Of a DNA stretch of 24,632 nucleotides, positions 54-24,632 are shown piece by piece. Below the pieces are notes generated by a model. That model was not told where the DNA came from, ran no database searches, and saw only the letters and a list, made by a program, of their open reading frames with translations. How positions within the stretch are numbered: position 1 is the first letter of the stretch; every line of letters starts with the position of its first letter. The position numbers were made by a program, and so were the translations under genes. The DNA is from a virus, in IMG/VR virus record IMGVR_UViG_3300021185_002377, positions 1 to 24,632 of that record; one strand, written 5' to 3'.

Positions 54-707
54 GTGGACAAAAAAAACACCGGAAAAATTGACCGATCAATTATTCAAGG
101 CGACCAGGCAAGGAAAATCCTGGAAGCAGATCTGAAAAATATTGTCTCGAAAGTTGCGTCCGGAAAAACTTTATCGGCTCGAGAGAGAAAAGTCATTGAA
201 GAAGCAACCTCTGAAAAAGACGAAGCGGAATCAGTAGGTGATTTGATCGAGATCCTGGGAATGACCAGGTCGAACTTTTACAAATACAAAAAGCGGAAAG
301 GATCACCGGATGGGAACTCGATTTCACAATGGAAGAAATTCATTGCAGAGTCGCAACTTGCCGGAGAAACGGAGCAGATCACTCCGGAAGAAATTATTCA
401 ACTCAAGGCAAAGCTATTAAAAGAAAAAGCATCCAGGGAGGAGATTGAACGAAAACTCAAAGAGATCCGGCTCGACCGGGAGGTTCAAGGGTTTGTTCCT
501 TTATCCCAGGCGAAGGAAGCAATTACTCGAGTCCTAGAACCCCTCTCGAGGGTCATTGAAGGTATTCCTAAGAAGTATGCTCTCCGGGTGAACCCGGTGG
601 ATCCAGATCATGCGGAGGAAATGCTCCGAGAAATGGTTCGAGAATTAAAAACACAAGTCCAGGACACTAGGGCACCGAAAATTTCAAAACAGAAAGGCGT
701 AAAATGA
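54..707 (+). CDS. terS: Putative terminase small subunit (DNA packaging)
   Basis: This 217-residue protein is probably the small terminase subunit, which recognises the phage packaging site and hands DNA to the large subunit. Residues about 60-82 look like a helix-turn-helix (VGDLIEILGMTRSNFYKYKK). Residues 110-145 form a charged helix with coiled-coil character. The C-terminal part (about 150-200, with LEPLSRVIEGIPKKYALRVNP) resembles the helical segment of lambda Nu1-like subunits that contacts the large subunit. The start is a GTG without a clear ribosome site. The stop overlaps the next ATG (ATGA at 704-707), and a large terminase gene lies one gene downstream, which supports the role. 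A different DNA-binding packaging factor is possible. Confidence 0.7.
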   Translation: MDKKNTGKIDRSIIQGDQARKILEADLKNIVSKVASGKTLSARERKVIEEATSEKDEAESVGDLIEILGMTRSNFYKYKKRKGSPDGNSISQWKKFIAESQLAGETEQITPEEIIQLKAKLLKEKASREEIERKLKEIRLDREVQGFVPLSQAKEAITRVLEPLSRVIEGIPKKYALRVNPVDPDHAEEMLREMVRELKTQVQDTRAPKISKQKGVK

Positions 708-1909
708 ATATTAAAAACCATACAAAAGAAAAACTTCACGACATCTCGAAAGTAATCGAGAACCCGAGAAATCCGAACAAACACTCGGACTCACAGATTG
801 CAATGCTCTCGAAGATTATTGAGTTCCAGGGGTGGAGGATTCCGATCGTTGTCTCCAATCGGTCTGGGTTCATAGTTCGAGGTCATGGTCGATTGATGTC
901 TGCCAGGAAGCTCGGACTCGAAGAGGTTCCGGTCTCTTTCCAGGATTACGAAAGTGAGGCTCAAGAGTGGGCAGATTTGATTGCCGACAATCGGATTGCA
1001 GAACTTGCGGAGATGGATCGATCAGAACTCAAGGACATCATTCAGCAACTCGACACCGGAGAGATCGACCTAGACTTGACCGGATTCGATCAGGAATCAC
1101 TCGAGGATTTGATGAGTGAATTCTTCGAGCCAGAAGATGGACTGACGGATGATGATAAGATCCCCGAAGATGTGGAAGCAAGATGCAATCTCGGGGATTT
1201 GTGGCAACTCGGAGACCATCGTTTGATGTGTGGAGATAGTACGAACGAACAAATGGTTGAGTTTTTACTTGAGAATAAAAAAGCAGACATAACTTTTTCT
1301 GACCCTCCTTATGGGGTTGATTATGACGGAGGGATTCAATTCACTAATTCTGGAGTAAAGAAAGGATCGAGGCAAAAATTAATAAACGATGATTCTGATA
1401 TTTATGAGAAGGTTATTCCTATTTTTGCAAGGCATACAAACTTCGCAATTTACACATGGTTTGCCGGTACCAAGGCACTAAGTCTTTACAAATCCATTGA
1501 TAAGGTTGGAGAAATTTCTGCATTAATTATCTGGGAAAAAAACGGAGGATATTCCGCCATGAATGCACATTACAAGCAAAAGCATGAACCTTGCATTTAT
1601 TGGAAGGCAAAAAATAGTTCAATGAAGTGGAACGGGTCTTCAAAAGAAAACACAATCTGGACAATCAACAAAGATGGGAAAAATAACTTTCATCCAACGC
1701 AAAAACCGATTGAACTTGCTTGCCGAGCAATTGGAAACCACAAGGCAGAATCCGTCCTCGACCTTTTCCTTGGTTCTGGCTCGACCTTAATCGCTTGCGA
1801 AAAGCTCAAGCGGAAATGCTTTGGCATGGAACTCGACCCTCATTATTGCGATGTGATTATTCAGCGATGGGAAGACTTCACCGGGAAAAAAGCGGAGAAG
1901 ATAAACTGA
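704..1909 (+). CDS. ParB/Srx-like domain fused to beta-class DNA methyltransferase
   Basis: This 401-residue protein has two parts. Residues about 10-115 match the ParB/sulfiredoxin-like domain often fused to phage methyltransferases: IENPRNPNKHSD, then IVRGHGRLMSARKLG. Residues about 160-395 are an N6-adenine or N4-cytosine methyltransferase of the beta arrangement. The catalytic DPPY is at 200-203, before HPTQKP (330-335) and the SAM-binding FLGSGS (355-360). It would methylate phage DNA, for protection against host restriction or to mark genomes for packaging; the target sequence cannot be read from the protein. It sits between the two terminase genes, overlapping the first by ATGA and the second by TGATG. 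The stretch 1201-1740, covering the catalytic motif and likely target-recognition region, has different base composition from its flanks. Confidence 0.9.
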   Translation: MNIKNHTKEKLHDISKVIENPRNPNKHSDSQIAMLSKIIEFQGWRIPIVVSNRSGFIVRGHGRLMSARKLGLEEVPVSFQDYESEAQEWADLIADNRIAELAEMDRSELKDIIQQLDTGEIDLDLTGFDQESLEDLMSEFFEPEDGLTDDDKIPEDVEARCNLGDLWQLGDHRLMCGDSTNEQMVEFLLENKKADITFSDPPYGVDYDGGIQFTNSGVKKGSRQKLINDDSDIYEKVIPIFARHTNFAIYTWFAGTKALSLYKSIDKVGEISALIIWEKNGGYSAMNAHYKQKHEPCIYWKAKNSSMKWNGSSKENTIWTINKDGKNNFHPTQKPIELACRAIGNHKAESVLDLFLGSGSTLIACEKLKRKCFGMELDPHYCDVIIQRWEDFTGKKAEKIN

Positions 1910-3696
1910 TGGACGAAAGACTCCTGGATCATACGTTCAAGATCTTTGAACCGACCAGGAAAGAGTCGGTTGTCGAGTGGGCAGAAAAGAACGCTTATCT
2001 TTCGGAACGAGTAACCGAAATGGCAGGAAGATATTCGACCTCAGAGCATCCATATGTCAGGGAAATCCTTAATCTTTGGCAGAATCCAAAGGTCAAAAAG
2101 ATTTCGTTGTGTTGGGGGTCGCAGACCTCCAAGACTACGACGACCTATATCGGATTAGGATGGGCAATTGATCGAAACCCTTCTCCGATTCTCTGGGTCT
2201 GGTCAAACGAGAAGCAAGCCAGGAACTTCTCGAACGATCGATTCCTACCATTCTGCGAGGACTCGGAGGCAATTGCTCGACACTTACCCAGGACAAGCGA
2301 CGGAAAGGTCGATCGAGATCGAGCCTCTGCCCTCCGTATTGAGTTTGATCGATGCTCGATGAATTTGATCGGAGGACAATCTCAAAGGAATGTCCGAAAT
2401 TATCCGGTCACCTATCTCGTCCTGGATGAGATCGACGTGATCCCGGAAGCAATCCGGAAGGATGTCCATGACCGGGTCAAGGGTCGGAGGTCGTACAAGA
2501 TCTTTCAGTCATCGACACCCATCGAGGAGAATGGAATCTGGGCAGAATATTTGACCGGTGATCGGAGCAAGTATTTCATGCCCTGCCCTCATTGCGAAGA
2601 GGAGATCTCCTTTGAGTGGAAAACCGGAAAGAATGATTATCGTCTGCAATATCCAGGCAAGGCAAAGAGGGACGATGGATCCTATGATTTTGATATCATA
2701 AAAAACGAAACTTTTTATTCCTGCCAATCTTGCGGAGGTCAGATCCAGGACGCTGAAAAATTCCGAATGCTTCGAGAGGGAAAATGGAAATCGACTGCAA
2801 CCGGTGAACCAGGAGTCCGGTCGTTTCACCTCTCGAGCCTTTATTCTCCGACGATCACTTTCGGGGAAATGATGATCAAATGGATCAAGGCTCAAGATTC
2901 CCTGGATGGTCTCAAGCAATTTGTTACCGGTTGGCTTGCCGAGCCGTGGAAGGATGAACTTTTAAACGCAACCGAAGAGGCAACTCATGAACTTTCCGGG
3001 GACTACGAGAGGGGAGACATGATGGGAGAATTTCGATTGATGGCAGTCGATGTCCAGAGAGCTCATTTCGTTTGGTTGGTTCGAGGGTACGACTCAGACG
3101 GAAATTCATTTTTGATCGATCATGGATATGCTCCGTCCTACACCGAACTTGATGAAATATTCGCCCGATATGAATGCTCCGCCTTGGTTATGGATACCGG
3201 TTTCGGGGAACGAACCCAGGAGAATTATGAGGCAATATGGAGGAGAAGATCGAAATGGTGGGCTTGTAAAGGTTGGAAGACTTTATCGACCCCGGTTTCA
3301 ATTAAAGCAATCGATCCATTCTCGGGAACGAATAAGTCAGGGAAATACAAACTCCGACTTCTCCATGTTGACTCGAGCGTCTTTGGTGGAGAGATCCTTA
3401 AACGAAGATCGAAACTCGTTGAGGGTTTTCAAATTTACCGAGAACCAGACAGAGATTATATCAAGCAAATCAATGGAAAATTCATCGTCGAAAGCGTCAC
3501 CCGAACAGGGGAAACAAAGCAAGAGTGGAGGACGAAAAGGCATGGGCAAGACCACTTTTTCGACTGCGAAGTCTACATCCATGCACTCTCGAAAGTCCTC
3601 GGGCTCGGGGCAGTCAAAAAAAAGAAATCCAAGGAAAATGAAAAAGAACAAAAACCAAGAAAAACAAGCAAGCAGAATGAACCGAATTTTTGGTAA
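1909..3696 (+). CDS. terL: Terminase large subunit, lambda gpA-like
   Basis: This is the packaging motor ATPase and genome-cutting nuclease, 595 residues from the ATG at 1909, which overlaps the methyltransferase stop by one base. An in-frame start near 1720 would lie inside the methyltransferase and is not needed. The ATPase domain shows a Walker A variant GSQTSKTT (70-77) and Walker B YLVLDE (169-174). Cysteine pairs CPHC (226-229) and CQSC (272-275) form a zinc-finger-like insert typical of the GpA family. The C-terminal nuclease half has acidic residues in AVDVQ (D381) and VMDTGF (D429), and a later DHFFDCE. The length fits the family (about 600-650). A Lys-rich tail ends the protein, overlapping the following small ORF by 20 bases. 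Confidence 0.93.
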   Translation: MDERLLDHTFKIFEPTRKESVVEWAEKNAYLSERVTEMAGRYSTSEHPYVREILNLWQNPKVKKISLCWGSQTSKTTTTYIGLGWAIDRNPSPILWVWSNEKQARNFSNDRFLPFCEDSEAIARHLPRTSDGKVDRDRASALRIEFDRCSMNLIGGQSQRNVRNYPVTYLVLDEIDVIPEAIRKDVHDRVKGRRSYKIFQSSTPIEENGIWAEYLTGDRSKYFMPCPHCEEEISFEWKTGKNDYRLQYPGKAKRDDGSYDFDIIKNETFYSCQSCGGQIQDAEKFRMLREGKWKSTATGEPGVRSFHLSSLYSPTITFGEMMIKWIKAQDSLDGLKQFVTGWLAEPWKDELLNATEEATHELSGDYERGDMMGEFRLMAVDVQRAHFVWLVRGYDSDGNSFLIDHGYAPSYTELDEIFARYECSALVMDTGFGERTQENYEAIWRRRSKWWACKGWKTLSTPVSIKAIDPFSGTNKSGKYKLRLLHVDSSVFGGEILKRRSKLVEGFQIYREPDRDYIKQINGKFIVESVTRTGETKQEWRTKRHGQDHFFDCEVYIHALSKVLGLGAVKKKKSKENEKEQKPRKTSKQNEPNFW

Positions 3697-15279: not shown

Positions 15280-15695
15280 CAACGCTCGGAGATTTAGGCA
15301 AAATCGTAGCAGATGAAATCAAGCTTGTTCGTATTGAAGCTGAAGAAGTTAAAGTTCAGACGGAGGAGAAAATCGAGATCATTGATACTCAATTATCCGG
15401 AACCATCGAGACCGACTTATCGGATCATGAAAATAAACTCCGGAATCATGAAGGTAAAATTAAATCCTTGTTCAGATCATTCTTGCACGAACAACAAAAA
15501 CAGAATGAAATTTCAAATGATGTTAATACCTGGATCTCGACGATCGAAGCTCAAATCATAACGATTGAAGCCAAGCAACAAAAATTCGACAACATAACAA
15601 CCGGTCTTTTTAATTATTTCTCGAAAATTCTTGAGTCAGATTCCGGGAACTCCGATCTTTCTCAATTAGTGGCGACTTTAAGTGAAAATAATTAA
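15276..15695 (+). CDS. Coiled-coil protein, probably fibre-associated
   Basis: This 139-residue protein is almost entirely helical and rich in Glu, Ile, Lys and Gln, with heptad-like runs (EIKLVRIEAEEVKVQTEEKI, then HENKLRNHEGKIKSL). It has no signal peptide or enzyme motif. It is translationally coupled at both ends (ATGA at the start; the next gene's GTG lies 14 bases before its stop). It may act as a trimeric stalk or connector between the fibre protein before it and the Cys-rich protein after it. That is inference from shape and place. Confidence 0.6.
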   Translation: MTTLGDLGKIVADEIKLVRIEAEEVKVQTEEKIEIIDTQLSGTIETDLSDHENKLRNHEGKIKSLFRSFLHEQQKQNEISNDVNTWISTIEAQIITIEAKQQKFDNITTGLFNYFSKILESDSGNSDLSQLVATLSENN

Positions 15696-16413
15696 ATGCG
15701 ACTGCGACTGCGAGTCAGATCCTTGCGAAGATTGTCAGTCTGGTGAAATATCTTGCCTTGATTTTTTTAATATCCAGGTAAATTTACCAGAGGAAACCTG
15801 GGAAGATTTATCCGGGAATTATCAAATGAATCGAGTCGGTTATCCTCAAAGTTTATCCGCTGATCTTTGGTGGTCAAATTTATGCTCAACGACCTGCAAT
15901 GCTTTCGGATTTATGGGTGAAGATTTAGCAATTGCAATCCAGGCAGATTCTCATCCTTATGTCTGGGACTTTATCTGGAGGGGTTATGTATATTTGCGGG
16001 ATTCTTCCGGGTCTTGGAATCAATTTCAATATGGTTTGAACTTTTCACAAGGTGGATTTCAGATGGTGGATGAAAGATCTTGCGAGGGTCATTGCAATGG
16101 GCTTTTTTCGGGAAAATATGCTCAAGAATATAGCCCGAAAACCAAAGATCTTTCAAGGCAAGGAATTTTTATTCATGGAGAACCTGGAGAGTTCGTCATT
16201 CCAATGGACAGGGCATGGGGTGGACAAGGTTATTTTGACGGAGAGTGCGGTCAATGTCGCTCCATGAATCACACTTATTACCCTGGATTGAATGTAAGTT
16301 TTAACTTCAAAGAAAAGTTTTTCATAAGAGATGATCTAGGACGCATTCTCCCCGAAACTTATATTCTGCAAAGTAATATTTTTAAACAATTGGAAAATGG
16401 ATGCACGACTTGA
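15682..16413 (+). CDS. Cys-rich protein of unknown function, tail region
   Basis: This 243-residue protein starts at a GTG overlapping the coiled-coil gene by 14 bases. The N-terminus has a dense cysteine cluster (C6, C8, C10, C15, C18, C25; CDCDCESDPCEDC), followed by pairs C68/C72, C134/C138 and C189/C192. The rest is aromatic- and Gly-rich with many Trp/Tyr/Phe, as in beta-sandwich binding domains (DLWWSNLC, YVWDFIWRGYVYLRD, MDRAWGGQGYFDGECGQC). The cysteines could bind metal or form disulfides outside the cell. No family is recognised. TCGA words are rare here compared with neighbouring genes, suggesting a different origin. Position suggests a virion tail-tip or host-contact role. Confidence 0.65.
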   Translation: MKIIKCDCDCESDPCEDCQSGEISCLDFFNIQVNLPEETWEDLSGNYQMNRVGYPQSLSADLWWSNLCSTTCNAFGFMGEDLAIAIQADSHPYVWDFIWRGYVYLRDSSGSWNQFQYGLNFSQGGFQMVDERSCEGHCNGLFSGKYAQEYSPKTKDLSRQGIFIHGEPGEFVIPMDRAWGGQGYFDGECGQCRSMNHTYYPGLNVSFNFKEKFFIRDDLGRILPETYILQSNIFKQLENGCTT

Positions 16414-17375: not shown

Positions 17376-19670
17376 ATGGGAAACTCTATCGGATCCGGGC
17401 TCGGTGGTAATATTGTGAGCGTATCTTTTATTAATCAACCATTTCCGAATGGTGGGGGTTTACAGGGCACGACCGAACAACCGACAACGACTTCGAGCAC
17501 AACCGAACAACCGACGACGACAATTCTTTGCGAACCGGTTTCTGTTAATGGATATTTCCCTCTGTATACATCAGAGCAATGTGCGATCCAGGAAGGAAAC
17601 GGAACCTTCCATTCTCATAACCTTAATGGGACTTTGTACTTCATGCCTAATGGTGTTGAGTATTGGCACGGAAACTATTCGACGACGACAACTTCCACCA
17701 CCGGAGAACCCACAACCTCGACCTCGAGCACAACTGAAGAACCGACGACATCAACTTCGACAACCCTTGAGCCCGAATACTTGAACCAGGATGGGTTTGC
17801 CGGTTTTCGGGTGAATCAATTTTTTAACAGGGACGGAGAACTTTGGTCTCTTGGATCCAATGCCGACAACACATTTGCCGAGCTAGGTTTCGGGTTCGGG
17901 GTGAATCCCTCGGATCAAGGGGAGGCATCTCAGACCTTAATGACGGATGTCGAATTTATCGCAGGAGGTGGAAATCGACTTTATGTGATCAAGGACGATG
18001 GATCCGTCTGGGCAGTCGGTCGAAATTCAAACGGAGAACTCGGGGACGGAACGCAAGAAACTGCATTTGATTTCATTAAGATTTTTGATGGTGAAGATAA
18101 AAACTATGTGACGACAACGAGCACGACTTCAACTTCCACAACGGAAGAACCTACGACCTCGAGCACAACCTCCACAACGGAAGAACCTACGACCTCGACG
18201 ACTAGCACCACAACGGAAGAACCTACGACCTCAACCTCCACAACGGAAGAACCTACGACCTCGACGACCTCGAGCACAACTTCGACAACGACGATCGACC
18301 CTTCGACCTTATGGGATCCGAGTCAGATCATCTCAAGCATCTGGCTCGATGCTTCCGACACAAGCACCATCACTCATGACGCTAATTTAATTAGTCAATG
18401 GAGTGACAAAAGTGGGAATGATAATCATGCCACACAATCCAGCAACGGAAGTAAACCTATCCTCAATGCTTCCGATCCAGATGGAAAAGTAATAATTGAT
18501 TTTGATGGGATAAATGATTCATTATTAGCACCAACTTTAAATATTAATCAATCTTACTCGATTTACTTAGTAGCTAAAAGCAACAAAACCTCCTCTGGTA
18601 CTCCTCATGATCGTGATCGAGATTATTTATTTGACGGAATTGGACCGGGTCAAGAGAGAACTTTGATTGCACTAAATCGGTCAGGCAAAGTTGATATGTA
18701 TGCCTACAATTCATGGGCAAATAGTAGTATTAACACGCCAACAGGTTATTTTGTAATCTCGGCAGTTTGTAATACTTCAAGCAGTTCGCTCGCCCTAAAT
18801 GGAACAAATGTCACGGGTCTAACTATTGGAGCAAGTAGCTTCACAAACGGATTAACGATCGGAGCAAATATGAGTTCGACTAGCGATTTCCTAGACGGAA
18901 GTATTGCTGAATTTTTGATTATTGATGAAACCTCAAGCACAAGCACTCGTCAGCGAGTCGAGGGCTACCTCGCCCACAAGTGGGGCATTTCCTCACAACT
19001 TCCGACCTCCCATCCATTCAAGAATGATATTCCGAGAGTCGGATCCACCACAACCTCGAGCACAACTGAAGAACCGATCCCGACTCTTGATAAAGATTAC
19101 ATTTATACATCGACTTTCGGAACGGATACCGCAACTTATTCGATCGATGAATCCGGGAAAATTAGTGTTTCGGGAGGTCAAAATCAAACCGCAAATTTAT
19201 TTTATGAAGACCCGATTTTTTCCGTTGGTGATGTCGTAAGTGTAAGAATTACTGATGCACCACCTACCGACACCTATTTGAGTATTTCGACGACAAACCG
19301 GGCACCGAACACCCCGGGCGAAAGTGGCATCCGATTAAGATGGAATTCTTCCGGAACTTTTACCTCCCGGAATTACATCAACGGAACGAGCACAAATAAA
19401 GATTTTGATTCAAGTTTTTCCGCATTTGACCAGGTAACACTTTATATTAAAAGGGAATCGAACACAACTTTTAGTGCAAGCTTTGACCTCGGGTCAGGCA
19501 AGGTGAATTTTAATGATTCGGGAGGAGATGAGAAACAAATCTTAACAATAACCGGACTAAGTTCGGATCCTCTTTTTATCGGTCTTGAAACCTACCACCT
19601 GGGATCCCGGGAGTTTATAGATTTCGGAACTGAAAACTTAGGAAAAATAATTCCATCGACCTCGGTTTAA
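17376..19670 (+). CDS. Giant modular tail fibre protein 1 (HSH module, RCC1 blades, LamG)
   Basis: The 764-residue product is a chain of domains joined by Thr/Ser/Glu/Pro linkers. In order: a Gly-rich N-terminus; linker 32-50; a module at 52-101 with NGYFPLYTSEQC, GTFHSHNLNG and YFMPNGVEYWHGNY; linker 102-131; two RCC1-type blades at about 139-240 (GELWSLGSN, GSVWAVGRNSNGELGDG); a long linker 246-308; a LamG/concanavalin-like domain at about 315-555 (IWLDASDTSTITH, ISQWSDKSGNDNHATQ, EGYLAHKWGISSQLPTSHPF); a short linker; and a C-terminal beta-rich domain of unknown family (about 570-764). LamG domains commonly bind glycans, so a receptor-binding or adhesion role is likely. GGAGG at 17362-17366 is a ribosome site. 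Confidence 0.8.
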   Translation: MGNSIGSGLGGNIVSVSFINQPFPNGGGLQGTTEQPTTTSSTTEQPTTTILCEPVSVNGYFPLYTSEQCAIQEGNGTFHSHNLNGTLYFMPNGVEYWHGNYSTTTTSTTGEPTTSTSSTTEEPTTSTSTTLEPEYLNQDGFAGFRVNQFFNRDGELWSLGSNADNTFAELGFGFGVNPSDQGEASQTLMTDVEFIAGGGNRLYVIKDDGSVWAVGRNSNGELGDGTQETAFDFIKIFDGEDKNYVTTTSTTSTSTTEEPTTSSTTSTTEEPTTSTTSTTTEEPTTSTSTTEEPTTSTTSSTTSTTTIDPSTLWDPSQIISSIWLDASDTSTITHDANLISQWSDKSGNDNHATQSSNGSKPILNASDPDGKVIIDFDGINDSLLAPTLNINQSYSIYLVAKSNKTSSGTPHDRDRDYLFDGIGPGQERTLIALNRSGKVDMYAYNSWANSSINTPTGYFVISAVCNTSSSSLALNGTNVTGLTIGASSFTNGLTIGANMSSTSDFLDGSIAEFLIIDETSSTSTRQRVEGYLAHKWGISSQLPTSHPFKNDIPRVGSTTTSSTTEEPIPTLDKDYIYTSTFGTDTATYSIDESGKISVSGGQNQTANLFYEDPIFSVGDVVSVRITDAPPTDTYLSISTTNRAPNTPGESGIRLRWNSSGTFTSRNYINGTSTNKDFDSSFSAFDQVTLYIKRESNTTFSASFDLGSGKVNFNDSGGDEKQILTITGLSSDPLFIGLETYHLGSREFIDFGTENLGKIIPSTSV
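17469..17525 (+). repeat. Thr-rich linker 1 in fibre 1
   Basis: Two near-identical copies encode TTEQPTTT, from DNA units built on ACCGAACAACCGACNACGAC. This is the only place where Gln replaces the second Glu of the usual EEP core. Confidence 0.85.
17679..17768 (+). repeat. Thr-rich linker 2 in fibre 1
   Basis: It encodes STTTTSTTGEPTTSTSSTTE and continues EPTTSTSTTLEP. The DNA word CTCGAGCACAACTGAAGAAC recurs almost unchanged near 19056 in the same gene. Confidence 0.85.
18111..18299 (+). repeat. Thr-rich linker 3 in fibre 1 (longest)
   Basis: About 63 residues of Thr, Ser, Glu and Pro hold four EEPTT cores. The DNA word ACAACGGAAGAACCTACGAC recurs four times with spacer lengths varying by Thr/Ser codons, typical of slippage or recombination between short repeats. 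Confidence 0.88.
19044..19079 (+). repeat. Thr-rich linker 4 in fibre 1
   Basis: A short linker (STTTSSTTEEP) separates the LamG domain from the C-terminal domain. Its DNA closely matches the first part of linker 2 about 1.35 kb upstream. Confidence 0.8.
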
Positions 19671-22518: not shown

Positions 22519-23133
22519 GTGCCAATCTTTAATGATCATCGAACAACCTTTCTCCATATCGGAAAAACCGGTGGAGTGAGTATTGAGAAAGCTCTCGGAC
22601 TTCCACCCAGGGATTATCGAAATTTTTGCCCGGAGTTTATCTTTGGCTTGAAGAATGGAGTCATGATTCAACACGCAAGGTTCCAATTTCTCGAGCAATT
22701 TATGACCGAAGAGCAGAAAGGTTTTTTTCGGTTCACTATCATCCGAAATCCCTGGCACCGAATGATCTCGGCTTTTTATTATTTACTCCCGGCACACCTC
22801 CGAAGATTTCAGACCTTCGAGAATTGGCTCGAGGACAAATACGAAAAGATTGTCGATGGAAGGTGGACGGAAGGTTCCCACTTTGTTCCTCAAATCGAAT
22901 ACACCCACCAGGACGGAAAGCAAATTGTCGATCGGATCCTCCGAACCGAAACCCTCGCAGATGATTTCTCCAGGATGTGCAAGGAGCAAGGGATCAAAGC
23001 AGGGGAATTAAAAAAGCTTAATGTCTCCAGGCTCCGGGACAAAAAGCTCGAGGACTACACCCCGAAAACTCGAGACATGATCTCCGAAATGTACGCACTC
23101 GAGATCGATCATTTCGGATTTAAATATGAATGA
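22519..23133 (+). CDS. Sulfotransferase (PAPS-dependent, sulfotransferase family 2-like)
   Basis: This 204-residue protein probably transfers sulfate from PAPS to a carbohydrate. It shows a 5'-phosphosulfate-binding loop, FLHIGKTGGVSIEKAL (residues 11-26; the family usually has HIPKTGG), and a 3'-phosphate-binding segment, FTIIRNPWHRMISAFYYL (72-89) with Arg76 and Ser84. The C-terminal pattern LNVSRLRDKKLEDYTP and IDHFGFKYE matches the end of carbohydrate sulfotransferases. No signal peptide or membrane anchor is visible, so it acts in the cytoplasm. It starts at GTG within TAATGTG, the TAA being the stop of fibre 2, and overlaps the next gene by eight bases. Substrate is unknown: fibre glycans or host surface sugars are candidates. 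Confidence 0.88.
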   Translation: MPIFNDHRTTFLHIGKTGGVSIEKALGLPPRDYRNFCPEFIFGLKNGVMIQHARFQFLEQFMTEEQKGFFRFTIIRNPWHRMISAFYYLLPAHLRRFQTFENWLEDKYEKIVDGRWTEGSHFVPQIEYTHQDGKQIVDRILRTETLADDFSRMCKEQGIKAGELKKLNVSRLRDKKLEDYTPKTRDMISEMYALEIDHFGFKYE

Positions 23134-23824
23134 CTTATTCGTCACCGGACTTTGGAGAGTCGATGCAAAATACAATTTCGAGTCTTACCTCCGAATGATT
23201 CCCCTGGTTGTGAAAAAATTAAAGGCAGAAGCAACCAGGGCAGGGAATCAAATCCGAATTGTCATCTGCACGAACCAGGAAGGGATCGATCGAATCAAGA
23301 TCAAAGATCCGGTCGAGTTTGTTCAGATAGAATTTGAAGACCTTCCATCCGTTCCATCCGTCTCAGAACCCTGCGGATTGAAACTCGGATGGATGCTCAA
23401 TACTGAAAAGCTCAACGGACTGAATCGAGTCTGGGCAAATAAGATTTTCTTGATGGATGAAATGTCCAGGAGGATGGGGGACGAGGAATCGAATGTGATT
23501 TGGATCGATGCCGGGCTCAAACAATTTCAAAAAAACTTCCCGGTCGGAAAGCTCGACAGGTTCGATCGAATCCGACCTGGACAAATCTTTACTAATCAAT
23601 ATCCGAATCCCGATCGGGTTCGGCATTGCAGGTGCGAAATTCCCCATCATATTCGAGCAGGATTGATTGGTTGTCATCGATCATCGATCCACGAATTTTC
23701 CAGGGAATTCTCGAGGCAAATGGGCAGGGTCTCCGAAGACTGCGGATCATGGGATGAGGAAACAATCCTCTCCAGCATTTACTTAAAGAATAAAAAAATA
23801 TTCCAAACCTGGAAAGATTTGTGA
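23126..23824 (+). CDS. Putative HtrL/YibB-like glycosyltransferase
   Basis: This 232-residue protein shows the pattern of the HtrL/YibB family: an N-terminal strand and Tyr/Leu helix (LFVTGLWRVDAKYNFESYL), the central VWANKIFLMDEM followed by VIWIDAGL (102-131, where the Asp probably belongs to the metal/nucleotide site), and a C-terminal GLIGCHRSSIHEFSREF...WDEETIL segment (about 179-214). Members are predicted sugar transferases of cell-surface polysaccharide clusters. The gene overlaps the sulfotransferase by eight bases and ends in GTGA overlapping the next gene. The substrate cannot be read from sequence. The family call rests on motif resemblance. Confidence 0.62.
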   Translation: MNDLFVTGLWRVDAKYNFESYLRMIPLVVKKLKAEATRAGNQIRIVICTNQEGIDRIKIKDPVEFVQIEFEDLPSVPSVSEPCGLKLGWMLNTEKLNGLNRVWANKIFLMDEMSRRMGDEESNVIWIDAGLKQFQKNFPVGKLDRFDRIRPGQIFTNQYPNPDRVRHCRCEIPHHIRAGLIGCHRSSIHEFSREFSRQMGRVSEDCGSWDEETILSSIYLKNKKIFQTWKDL

Positions 23825-24225
23825 GCGTTCGAGTCGGGGCAATGTTTGAGAGTTTGTTTGCGTCCGAGGCAATGCGTCGAGGATTGGATGTGGCTTTTCC
23901 GTCTGGTCATCATCTCCCATTCGATCTCATTGTTTCAAATTCATCCGGGAAACTTTTTCGAGTGCAAGTCAAAGGAACCTCGAGCGACCAGGGAGGCTTT
24001 TATAAATTTATAACTAGGCGAGGAACAGGGACGAAAAAGAGGGTCGATTATCGAAATGAAATTGATGTCCTGGTCGGGATCGTCGAGAGACCAGGAGATC
24101 GAGTTTTTTATGTCATTCCAAGCACTAGTCTAGGGGATCAACTATCGCTAAAAGTTAGACCATCTTTTGACTCCTCCGGGAAATATGAAAGGTTTAAGGA
24201 ATCGTGGGAAATATTTAAAAAATGA
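23821..24225 (+). CDS. PD-(D/E)XK nuclease-like protein
   Basis: This 134-residue protein starts at GTG (GTGA overlap). The layout is that of a small PD-(D/E)XK fold: a helix with Glu10 (GAMFESLFASEAMRRG), then HLPFDLIV with Asp35, then LFRVQVKGT with Gln49-x-Lys51, followed by a beta-rich region (NEIDVLVGIVERPGDRVFYV). Relatives include Holliday-junction-resolvase-like and homing-type nucleases. Gln in place of the more usual Glu before x-Lys is found in active members too. Why it sits between two glycosyltransferase genes is unclear: it may be a selfish or recombination-promoting element, or act on host DNA. Overlaps with both neighbours indicate co-translation. Confidence 0.68.
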   Translation: MSVRVGAMFESLFASEAMRRGLDVAFPSGHHLPFDLIVSNSSGKLFRVQVKGTSSDQGGFYKFITRRGTGTKKRVDYRNEIDVLVGIVERPGDRVFYVIPSTSLGDQLSLKVRPSFDSSGKYERFKESWEIFKK

Positions 24226-24632
24226 AAAAGAAATTAACTATCGGAATGGCGACTTCAGACGACTTTGATGGAGTGTTTTTTACGACTCAATCAATCCGGA
24301 TCGCAAACCGGGATCGACTTGATGAAATTGAGATTTTAATCATCGACAATAAGCCAGGAAGTCCGGAGGGGAAAGCAACTCGGGAACACGCTCGAAAGAT
24401 CGGGGCAAGGTATCACCCGGAAAAGGAGTGGAGATCGACTGCAATTCGAGATCTGGTCTTCAAGTTCTCGAAAGCGGAATGGGTTCTATGTATGGATCCC
24501 CATGTTCTCGTCGAGCCCGGAACGATTGCCAGGATCCTCGAGTTTGCCGAGCATAATCCAGGGTCTCGAGACCTCTACGCAGGAGGACTTTTTTATGACA
24601 ATTTAGGCAACGGAGTAGCAACCAACATGAGA
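24222..24632 (+). CDS. Family 2-like glycosyltransferase, 5' part only
   Basis: The ATG at 24222 overlaps the previous stop (ATGA), and the frame stays open through the last base, giving 137 residues without a stop. The N-terminus is a GT-A-type nucleotide-sugar-binding domain: LTIGMATSDDFDGVFFTTQS (5-24), EIEILIIDNKPGSPEG (36-50), and VLCMDPHVLVEPGTI (88-102), whose MDPH is the DxD-like metal site. Members move sugars from nucleotide sugars to polysaccharides, lipids or proteins. With the two transferases upstream it forms a carbohydrate-modification cassette. The remainder lies outside the window. Confidence 0.82.
   Translation, partial: MKKKLTIGMATSDDFDGVFFTTQSIRIANRDRLDEIEILIIDNKPGSPEGKATREHARKIGARYHPEKEWRSTAIRDLVFKFSKAEWVLCMDPHVLVEPGTIARILEFAEHNPGSRDLYAGGLFYDNLGNGVATNMR

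Follow-up and report, generated by a model that had tools for sequence, protein, structure and literature searches.

The exchange of target-recognition domains has been described for Type III DNA methyltransferases. Recognition domains of the modA alleles of Haemophilus and Neisseria, as well as those of the Type III Mod proteins of H. pylori, are exchanged via conserved flanks (PMC3311624, PMC3983042), and such domains are reported to move even between non-orthologous genes, at motif DNA of weak similarity (PMC3983042). The recognition domain of modA12 is lower in GC, which was interpreted as an indication of horizontal transfer (PMC3311624). Fusions of a ParB domain to a DNA methyltransferase are known from phages and bacteria. 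In the ParB-Tls locus, a fusion of ParB with an m6A/m4C methyltransferase precedes the terminase genes, with 36 examples of this type in Paracoccus prophages, and one suggestion is that ParB guides modification as the DNA is packaged (PMC6536676, citing Iyer et al. 2013); in a ParB-methylase of Bacillus cereus, the ParB domain is described to nick DNA non-specifically (PMC5512222). In cryoconite phages, orphan methyltransferases are the commonest named genes of variable islands (51 of 482 function-assigned genes), and the packaging module of a Mu-like phage showed insertion, deletion or replacement of methyltransferases (PMC7468147). A search by title in the mostly non-subscription literature returned no report of exchange within phage ParB-methyltransferases.

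The window analyzed here, a virus record of 24,632 bases taken at its full length, carries a tailed-phage late operon with the gene order putative small terminase subunit (TerS), methyltransferase, large terminase subunit (TerL, gpA), portal, major head protein and tail protein. The putative TerS gene (54..707, plus strand) is assigned by its position upstream of TerL, and a Pfam scan of its product gave zero matches. Its stop codon overlaps the start codon of the methyltransferase gene (ATGA), which lies at 704..1909 on the plus strand and codes for a 401-residue fusion of ParB to an N6/N4 DNA methyltransferase (PF01555, 2.8e-21). TerL follows at 1909..3696 on the same strand (PF05876, 6.4e-44; PF20454, 5.7e-30), and the ParB-methyltransferase gene hence occupies the slot between TerS and TerL. 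Further downstream, we observed a weak RCC1-like match (17376-19670), a sulfotransferase-family protein (22519-23133), a PD-(D/E)XK nuclease-family protein (23821-24225) and, at the end of the window, a glycosyltransferase-family fragment (24222-24632).

The methyltransferase reading frame is open, with the DPPY, HPTQKP and FLGSGST motifs all intact. Its product matches the profile of the ParB-methyltransferase family phrog_498 (3.7e-119) over residues 3-398 of 401, covering profile positions 29-428 of 633, and was matched in 909 of 50,697 phage records. A ParB N-terminal domain is present according to the ParB-like family phrog_620 (1.8e-37, residues 7-157), the Pfam ParB_N match (PF02195, 5e-4) lying under the curated cut-off (20.4 vs 26.3 bits). 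The motifs occur in the order DPPY (residues 200-203), recognition region, FLGSG (residues 355-359), which we take to be the order that defines the beta class of amino-methyltransferases. We built a structure model from 65 aligned sequences with a mean pLDDT of 85.9 (34.1 for a single-sequence model). Foldseek matches were re-compared with the whole model, the comparison resting mainly on residues 168-401 with the ParB part outside, and placed it close to DNA-bound M.BceJIV (Z 22.4, rmsd 2.2, 205 aligned), CcrM (Z 21.8) and the Type III Mod Mbo45V (Z 18.7). Taken together, the gene probably encodes an orphan phage beta-class amino-methyltransferase fused to ParB, with predicted N6-adenine or N4-cytosine transfer, presumably active and with its specificity presumably set by the core.

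On the plus strand of the gene, a ParB-like N-terminal part (N, 704..1198), which resembles the stand-alone ParB of locus L120, is followed by a 5' junction zone (1193..1312) that ends at the catalytic DPPY motif (1301-1312). The putative target-recognition cassette (1313..1690, codons 204-329) corresponds to the unit swapped in relatives. A 3' junction zone (1691..1745), reaching from HPTQKP (1691-1708) to a change point in third-position GC content (GC3) at about 1736, leads into the conserved C-terminal part (C, 1746..1906) with the SAM-binding motif FLGSGST (1766-1786). The initial annotation, which had proposed that the segment 1201-1740 was replaced by recombination, was thus right in placing DPPY inside this segment and the ParB part and the final SAM motif outside of it. 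We consider it likely that the gene is a mosaic ParB-methyltransferase, belonging to a family whose cores are swapped as cassettes and thereby give new anti-restriction specificity.

Ancestry of the two parts of the gene

The two parts of the protein resemble different relatives, which are referred to here by their locus numbers. Compared with L005, amino acid identity is 61% in the ParB part and 21% in the core, while the comparison with L126 gives 28% in the ParB half and 72% in the core. When the ParB part alone was used as query, eight loci were returned: L118/L119, which belong to the L005 lineage (63%), the stand-alone ParB of L120 (64%), L121-L124 (48-54%) and L125 (31%). The core alone likewise returned eight loci, L126-L133, at 57-73%. 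Loci found with the ParB query carry unlike cores or none, and those found with the core query carry unlike ParB parts. At the DNA level, similarity to L005 ends at nt 1188, whereas similarity to L126 starts at nt 1193 and that to L127/L128 at nt 1127, reaching nt 1893-1901.

Trees were constructed with IQ-TREE from 46 of the 72 non-redundant rows of the alignment. The N tree places the window with L005/L009/L017 (support 100/99; L119 belongs with L005), and the core tree places it with L126/L127 (98/92) and, more widely, with L126-L132 (99/97). In AU tests, for which the clades were picked after the identities had been seen, the N grouping is incompatible with the core data (p=3.7e-5), as is the core grouping with the N data (p=1.5e-4). 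Rejection fails for two narrower groupings, namely the window with L126/L127/L128/L131 on the N tree (p=.088) and the window with L005 alone on the core tree (p=.47), the latter because the L005 core forms a very long branch. The separate trees for ParB part and core conflict in both directions, and neither congruence nor uniform identity along the gene was found.

The position of the switch was located with a triplet scan of 138 informative residues, which places it at residues 168-171 (nt 1205-1214), within a stretch holding few informative sites (residues 151-202), with a maximum descent of 61 and none of 20,000 permutations as extreme. This is close to the 5' boundary at 1201 that had been proposed. 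On the 3' side, all 7 diagnostic sites in residues 332-346 favour L126, and past residue 346 eight sites favour L005 and seven favour L126. Of the proposed replacement between two breakpoints, the 5' switch therefore holds, while a 3' breakpoint within the window gene is marked by GC3 alone, the diagnostic sites being split 8 to 7. At the level of sequence, it is well supported that the ParB part and the methyltransferase core differ in ancestry. L126 was rejected as a recent donor, as its core is only 72% identical in amino acids and has a GC3 of.16 vs.35 in the window. The terminases that accompany the window's N type do not decide the matter: L121 and L124 combine a related TerL (about 50%) and this N type with other cores, and L119 has the window's N type, yet a terminase of another family.

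The slot itself varies among the phages related through TerL. L084 (TerL 91% identical in amino acids), L085 and L086 (78%) lack the methyltransferase gene, TerS abutting TerL; the TerS query returned L084 as the only relative. In L082, about 20 nt at the contig edge resemble the 3' end of the window's methyltransferase gene, and the first 60 nt of L083 are unmatched. L089 carries a different methyltransferase in the slot (best match phrog_67). In L087 (TerL 78%), QueD-like, nucleoside deoxyribosyltransferase-like and queuine-transferase-like genes lie between TerS and TerL (718-2217), perhaps constituting a 7-deazaguanine DNA modification cassette. The L089 methyltransferase (327-1070) and the L089 TerL share the start MKTP, and L090 has TerL (577-780) at the corresponding position but lacks the methyltransferase; the L089 gene looks as though it had entered at the start of TerL. 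Because L084-L086 are empty at this position and L087 and L089 hold other modification-type genes, the TerS-TerL junction is a slot for alternative DNA-modification genes, like the one reported for the ParB-Tls locus (PMC6536676).

This variation bears on the possibility, which we consider the less probable one, that the slot received the complete gene in one piece from another phage, with no internal swap in the window lineage. The absence of the gene from L084, L085 and L086 and the other genes of L087 and L089 speak for a gain of this kind. Such a gain (or loss) is real, but it leaves the internal mosaic, whether it arose earlier or later, unexplained, and both can hold.

Composition and palindrome content of the core

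The core had been regarded as foreign in view of its scarcity in TCGA and CCWGG and its AT-richness. The counts themselves are reproduced: segment 1201-1740 contains 1 TCGA, 0 CCAGG and 0 CCTGG, compared with 313 TCGA (mean 6.8 per 540 nt) and 79 CCAGG plus 43 CCTGG (mean 2.6 per 540 nt) in the window, and its GC content is 37.6% vs 44.6% for the window as a whole. Both extremes, at most one TCGA together with zero CCWGG, are found only in 540-nt segments starting at 1131-1221 (0.4% of about 2,410 overlapping segments), and a GC content as low occurs in 1.0% of such segments, in two regions. The flanks had been described as full of both motifs, which suits TCGA (12 in 704-1200, 3 in 1741-1909) better than CCWGG (three CCAGG in the former, none in the latter). 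Recoding the same protein with the codon usage of the phage leads to an expectation of 3.5 TCGA and 0.39 CCWGG in 1201-1740, and after this codon control the single TCGA has a P of.09, while the absence of CCWGG is uninformative. Once amino acids and codon usage were controlled in this way, the two motifs were dropped as primary evidence for a foreign origin; since the deficit is weak after codon control, GC3 and the trees were used instead.

The AT shift in the core is synonymous, and GC3 is the robust signal. In the window gene, GC3 is.536 in N,.344 in the core and.582 in C, each deviating from phage codon usage at a P of about.002-.01 (core P=.002), with N and C deviating in the opposite direction. 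A change-point scan places the GC3 boundaries at codons 175 and 344 (nt ~1229 and ~1736; likelihood ratio 21, permutation P=.007). Two other regions of the window, 15682-16413 and ~18190-18900, deviate towards low GC3 as much as the core does; the first of them codes for 243 aa, contains one TCGA and has no match in Pfam or PHROGs.

To place this in the context of the family, near-identical rows were removed, which kept 72 of the 90 viral sequences (L057 is left out of one GC3 count). With amino acids stratified, codons 203-331 have a lower GC3 than the remainder of the gene in 69 of the 72 sequences, the window among them; the median odds ratio is.52, and the difference is significantly lower in 44 and significantly higher in 0. 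The drop in mean GC3 across the 72 sequences begins at codon 205, directly past DPPY. Measured against the codon usage of the own locus, which was feasible for 65 loci (the other 7 of 72 having too little other coding sequence), GC3 deviates by -.155 in the core, -.083 in C and -.005 in N. Raising of the flanks by GC-biased gene conversion was rejected over the 65 loci in view of N at -.005 and core at -.155, a rejection that does not extend to the window taken alone, in which both flanks exceed the GC3 expectation (+.066 and +.148). AT-richness of the core is a lasting trait of this module. The synonymous dip being family-wide, it neither dates nor proves import, and the AT-richness can no longer be read as a sign of import as it had been originally. 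It is compatible with continuing import from an AT-rich pool, and selection on the module may also be its source.

Palindrome content offers a further view on the age of the core. Expectations for the window were obtained by synonymous codon shuffling, and the comparison covers the window, L083, L084, L086 and L103. In the window, several palindromes are strongly avoided (observed/expected: GGCC 0/24, GGNCC 1/36, ACGT 4/49, CGCG 1/24, GCGC 0/20, ACNGT 1/25, TTCGAA 0/13) and others are over-represented (CCWGG 109/35, CTCGAG 47/11, GGATCC 32/14, CCGG 138/87). The motifs over-represented in the window are exactly those near-absent in the sister lineage L086 (TerL 78%), with CCWGG at 0/6, CTCGAG at 0/3, GGATCC at 0/4 and CCGG at 1/16. 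The strong avoidance suggests that the window lineage is under restriction pressure. The window core contains 0 of eleven near-purged palindromes vs 5.8 expected from its own dinucleotides, and the L126 and L127 genes likewise contain 0 of those eleven. This argues against a very recent import of the core from a phage that faces a different restriction regime; the nearest known core is only 72% identical to that of the window.

The same observation enters into the question of direction. The ParB part might be the newcomer, in the sense that a resident L126-type methyltransferase was given a new N-terminal domain, a scenario that we rate as rather doubtful and slightly below the gain of the gene as a unit. 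It would account for a core that obeys the palindrome avoidance of the phage and for DNA similarity to L126-L128 that extends through the C part (nt 1893-1901), and the trees are silent on direction. Against it stands the ParB part, which matches the phage in composition and TCGA density where the core does not, together with L121 and L124 (TerL 50%), which pair the same N type with other cores.

Core exchange among relatives

Whether cores are exchanged in the family was assessed on 170 aligned sequences, comprising 90 viral ones (the window included) and 80 from genomes. Left out were L066 (internal stop), L113, L114 and L133 (partial), L120, L122 and L123 (no methyltransferase), L125 (unaligned) and L118, L119, L121 and L124 (contigs or genes identical to those of L005, L009 and L017); L010 and L057 are incomplete at the N end. 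Among the 199 pairs with N 85-99.5% identical, core identity is bimodal, being below 60% in 117, at least 85% in 81 and between these values in 1, and C falls below 60% in none of the 199. In the viral pairs of this range, 117 of 153 have a core below 60% and the other 36 one of at least 85%; restricted to the 72 non-redundant viral rows, it is 76 of 91 pairs below 60%, the thinning by N and core jointly favouring unlike pairs. As pairs are non-independent, clusters weigh more than pair counts: 9 of the 22 clusters with N at least 92% identical contain 2-4 core types, viral contigs throughout. Core types 1 and 2 reach N identities as low as 60 and 57%, respectively, and some pairs have cores 97-99% identical despite N at 75-87%.

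The boundaries of the exchanged segment are sharp at the DNA level. Twelve pairs with high N but low core identity were chosen for inspection, and in 10 of them the DNA similarity breaks off at gene nt 564-619 and returns at 918-1054, past DPPY and close to HPTQKP; it continues 3' of that point, mostly for more than 1 kilobase. Similarity in the inspected pairs amounts to 81-95% before the core and 70-95% after it. In its own coordinates, the truncated L057 has its breakpoints at 366 and 742, and L035/L039 and L014/L021 gave a single gapped alignment with the same dip in protein identity. The sharp breakpoints in pairwise identity that the initial annotation had proposed to look for are seen in the viral relatives, where the core is swapped between similar flanks. 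As judged from these alignments, exchange of the recognition core is well supported for the viral relatives and probable for the window gene.

The bimodality also speaks against a history free of recombination, in which the recognition region would be fast-evolving, naturally AT-rich and foreign-looking in every such gene. This explanation, which we hold to be improbable, draws on the GC3 dip in 69 of 72 sequences that starts right past DPPY and on the contrast between core and N over the 65 loci (.155 below own-locus codon usage vs -.005), and for composition alone it survives. Fast divergence fails, however, to explain a core that is 72% identical to L126 next to a ParB part at 28%, the nearly identical cores joined to more distant N parts and the two separate ranges of core identity among pairs with similar N, and it is contradicted by the conflict of the N and core trees.

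In the genome-derived (prophage) sequences, which were ranked by likeness to the window and are an unfair sample in this respect, swaps are seldom seen. None of the 46 pairs with N 85-99.5% has a core below 60%, and 1 of 122 pairs with N at least 80% is swapped. With 30 genes from one bacterial order included and two doubled genes left out, 19 of 473 bacterial genome pairs with N at least 65% have a core below 50% (27 of 485 with the doubled genes). These swaps are confined to few groups, namely L194/L195/L222-L224, L160 vs L227-L231, and L210 and L142 vs others. In sequenced phages, nt 1-356 of the gene of Streptococcus phage Javan117 match Javan141 (98.3%), Javan523 (93.5%) and phiGBSVK-E1 (86.0%), with nothing beyond at that sensitivity; in Javan141 a stand-alone ParB is followed by an ABC-type gene. 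A Gordonia gene used as query gave at least 80% coverage in 45 of 71 matching records, and central exchange was not seen among the matches listed (45 of 71, near-full-length). A Javan123-type streptococcal gene gave at least 80% coverage in 82 of 82 matching records, again with no central exchange seen among the matches listed (50 of 82). An exchange universal to ParB-methyltransferases is therefore unsupported, given the Gordonia and streptococcal groups without central swap and the rarity of swapped genome pairs.

Several arrangements in these relatives are of note in their own right. Acidithiobacillus phage AcaML1 carries a tandem pair of methyltransferase genes (L215:1432-4247), genome G001 has two methyltransferase copies, and such tandem or paired copies could serve as feedstock for exchange; with the AcaML1 gene as query, 5 weak records were returned from plasmids. 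In S. suis phage records such as Javan575 (MK448811.1, 12355-14466), two separate pieces make up the methyltransferase match, which spans 2,112 bp vs 1,257; this suggests an insertion inside the methyltransferase gene in several of these records. A stand-alone ParB lies beside an ABC-ATPase-like gene (phrog_11143) in L120 (4001-5612), followed there by an acetyltransferase-like gene matching the same phrog, as well as in Javan141 (L216:3001-4175). L120 and Javan141 have related ParB domains without a methyltransferase.

A very improbable explanation is the joining of contigs of different phages in conserved motif DNA during assembly: the pairs that keep N and C at high N identity are all metagenome contigs with breakpoints in conserved motifs, and none of the 46 comparable genome pairs is swapped, but 82 of 83 extracted viral genes read through both junctions without a break in frame, the same N-core combinations recur in separate assemblies from different metagenomes (e.g. 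L012/L013, L015/L016, L044/L045; some samples are perhaps related), and less similar swapped pairs are found between bacterial genomes.

The mosaic origin that we favour can be outlined as follows. A ParB part reaching to nt ~1190-1300 and a catalytic and recognition core of different ancestry are joined in the linker before DPPY or near DPPY itself. The stretch from DPPY to HPTQKP, the predicted target-recognition domain, is swapped as a cassette in this family, at least in environmental phages, probably through recombination within the conserved DNA that codes for the motifs on both sides, the ParB part and the SAM-binding end staying in place. The exchange may proceed by homologous or short-homology recombination. 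Each swap would create a new methylation specificity in one step, protecting the phage DNA from a different set of host restriction enzymes, and evasion of restriction by cassette exchange appears a reasonable reading.

Comparison with known systems

Like the ParB-Tls locus, the window has a ParB-bearing DNA-modification gene that adjoins the large terminase subunit; it differs in that the gene is located between TerS and TerL, and recognition-core exchange is not described in the available text on ParB-Tls. The turnover described for cryoconite phages is mainly at the level of genes, that account, as far as available, giving no cassette boundaries within methyltransferase genes. In the lactococcal system, Hill et al. 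in 1991 reportedly found that a phage had acquired, from plasmid pTR2030, a functional domain of a Type IIA methylase, which has in common with the present case that a phage gains a methyltransferase domain through exchange.

The closest parallel to the core swap is the exchange of recognition domains in Type III Mod proteins. Similar to these, the viral relatives have a variable central region between conserved ends with DPPY and FxGxG, and the recognition domain of the window is lower in GC than its flanks, as is described for modA12. Unlike them, the window enzyme is an orphan that carries a ParB domain and is encoded in a phage packaging operon: the gene has no adjoining res gene, its neighbours being TerS and TerL, and no helicase-type restriction gene was found among the window proteins scanned. 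The family-wide AT-rich cassette serves as a warning that a low-GC recognition domain can be a standing property of a module instead of a sign of transfer.

If the cassette sets specificity, the anti-restriction methylation of a phage would be changeable in a single recombination step, the cassette type could be read from the sequence, and it would become testable whether phage methylation tracks the restriction specificities of co-occurring hosts. An evenly balanced proposition is that, in environmental phages, the ParB-methyltransferases constitute an open system of alleles, in which shared AT-rich specificity cassettes recombine between DPPY and HPTQKP. In such a system, anti-restriction methylation specificity would turn over faster than the surrounding genome, and the ParB part would act as a chassis that is combined with other modules too, as in L120 and Javan141. 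The system would then represent, on the side of the phage, a counterpart to the shuffling of Type III mod and hsdS alleles in hosts.
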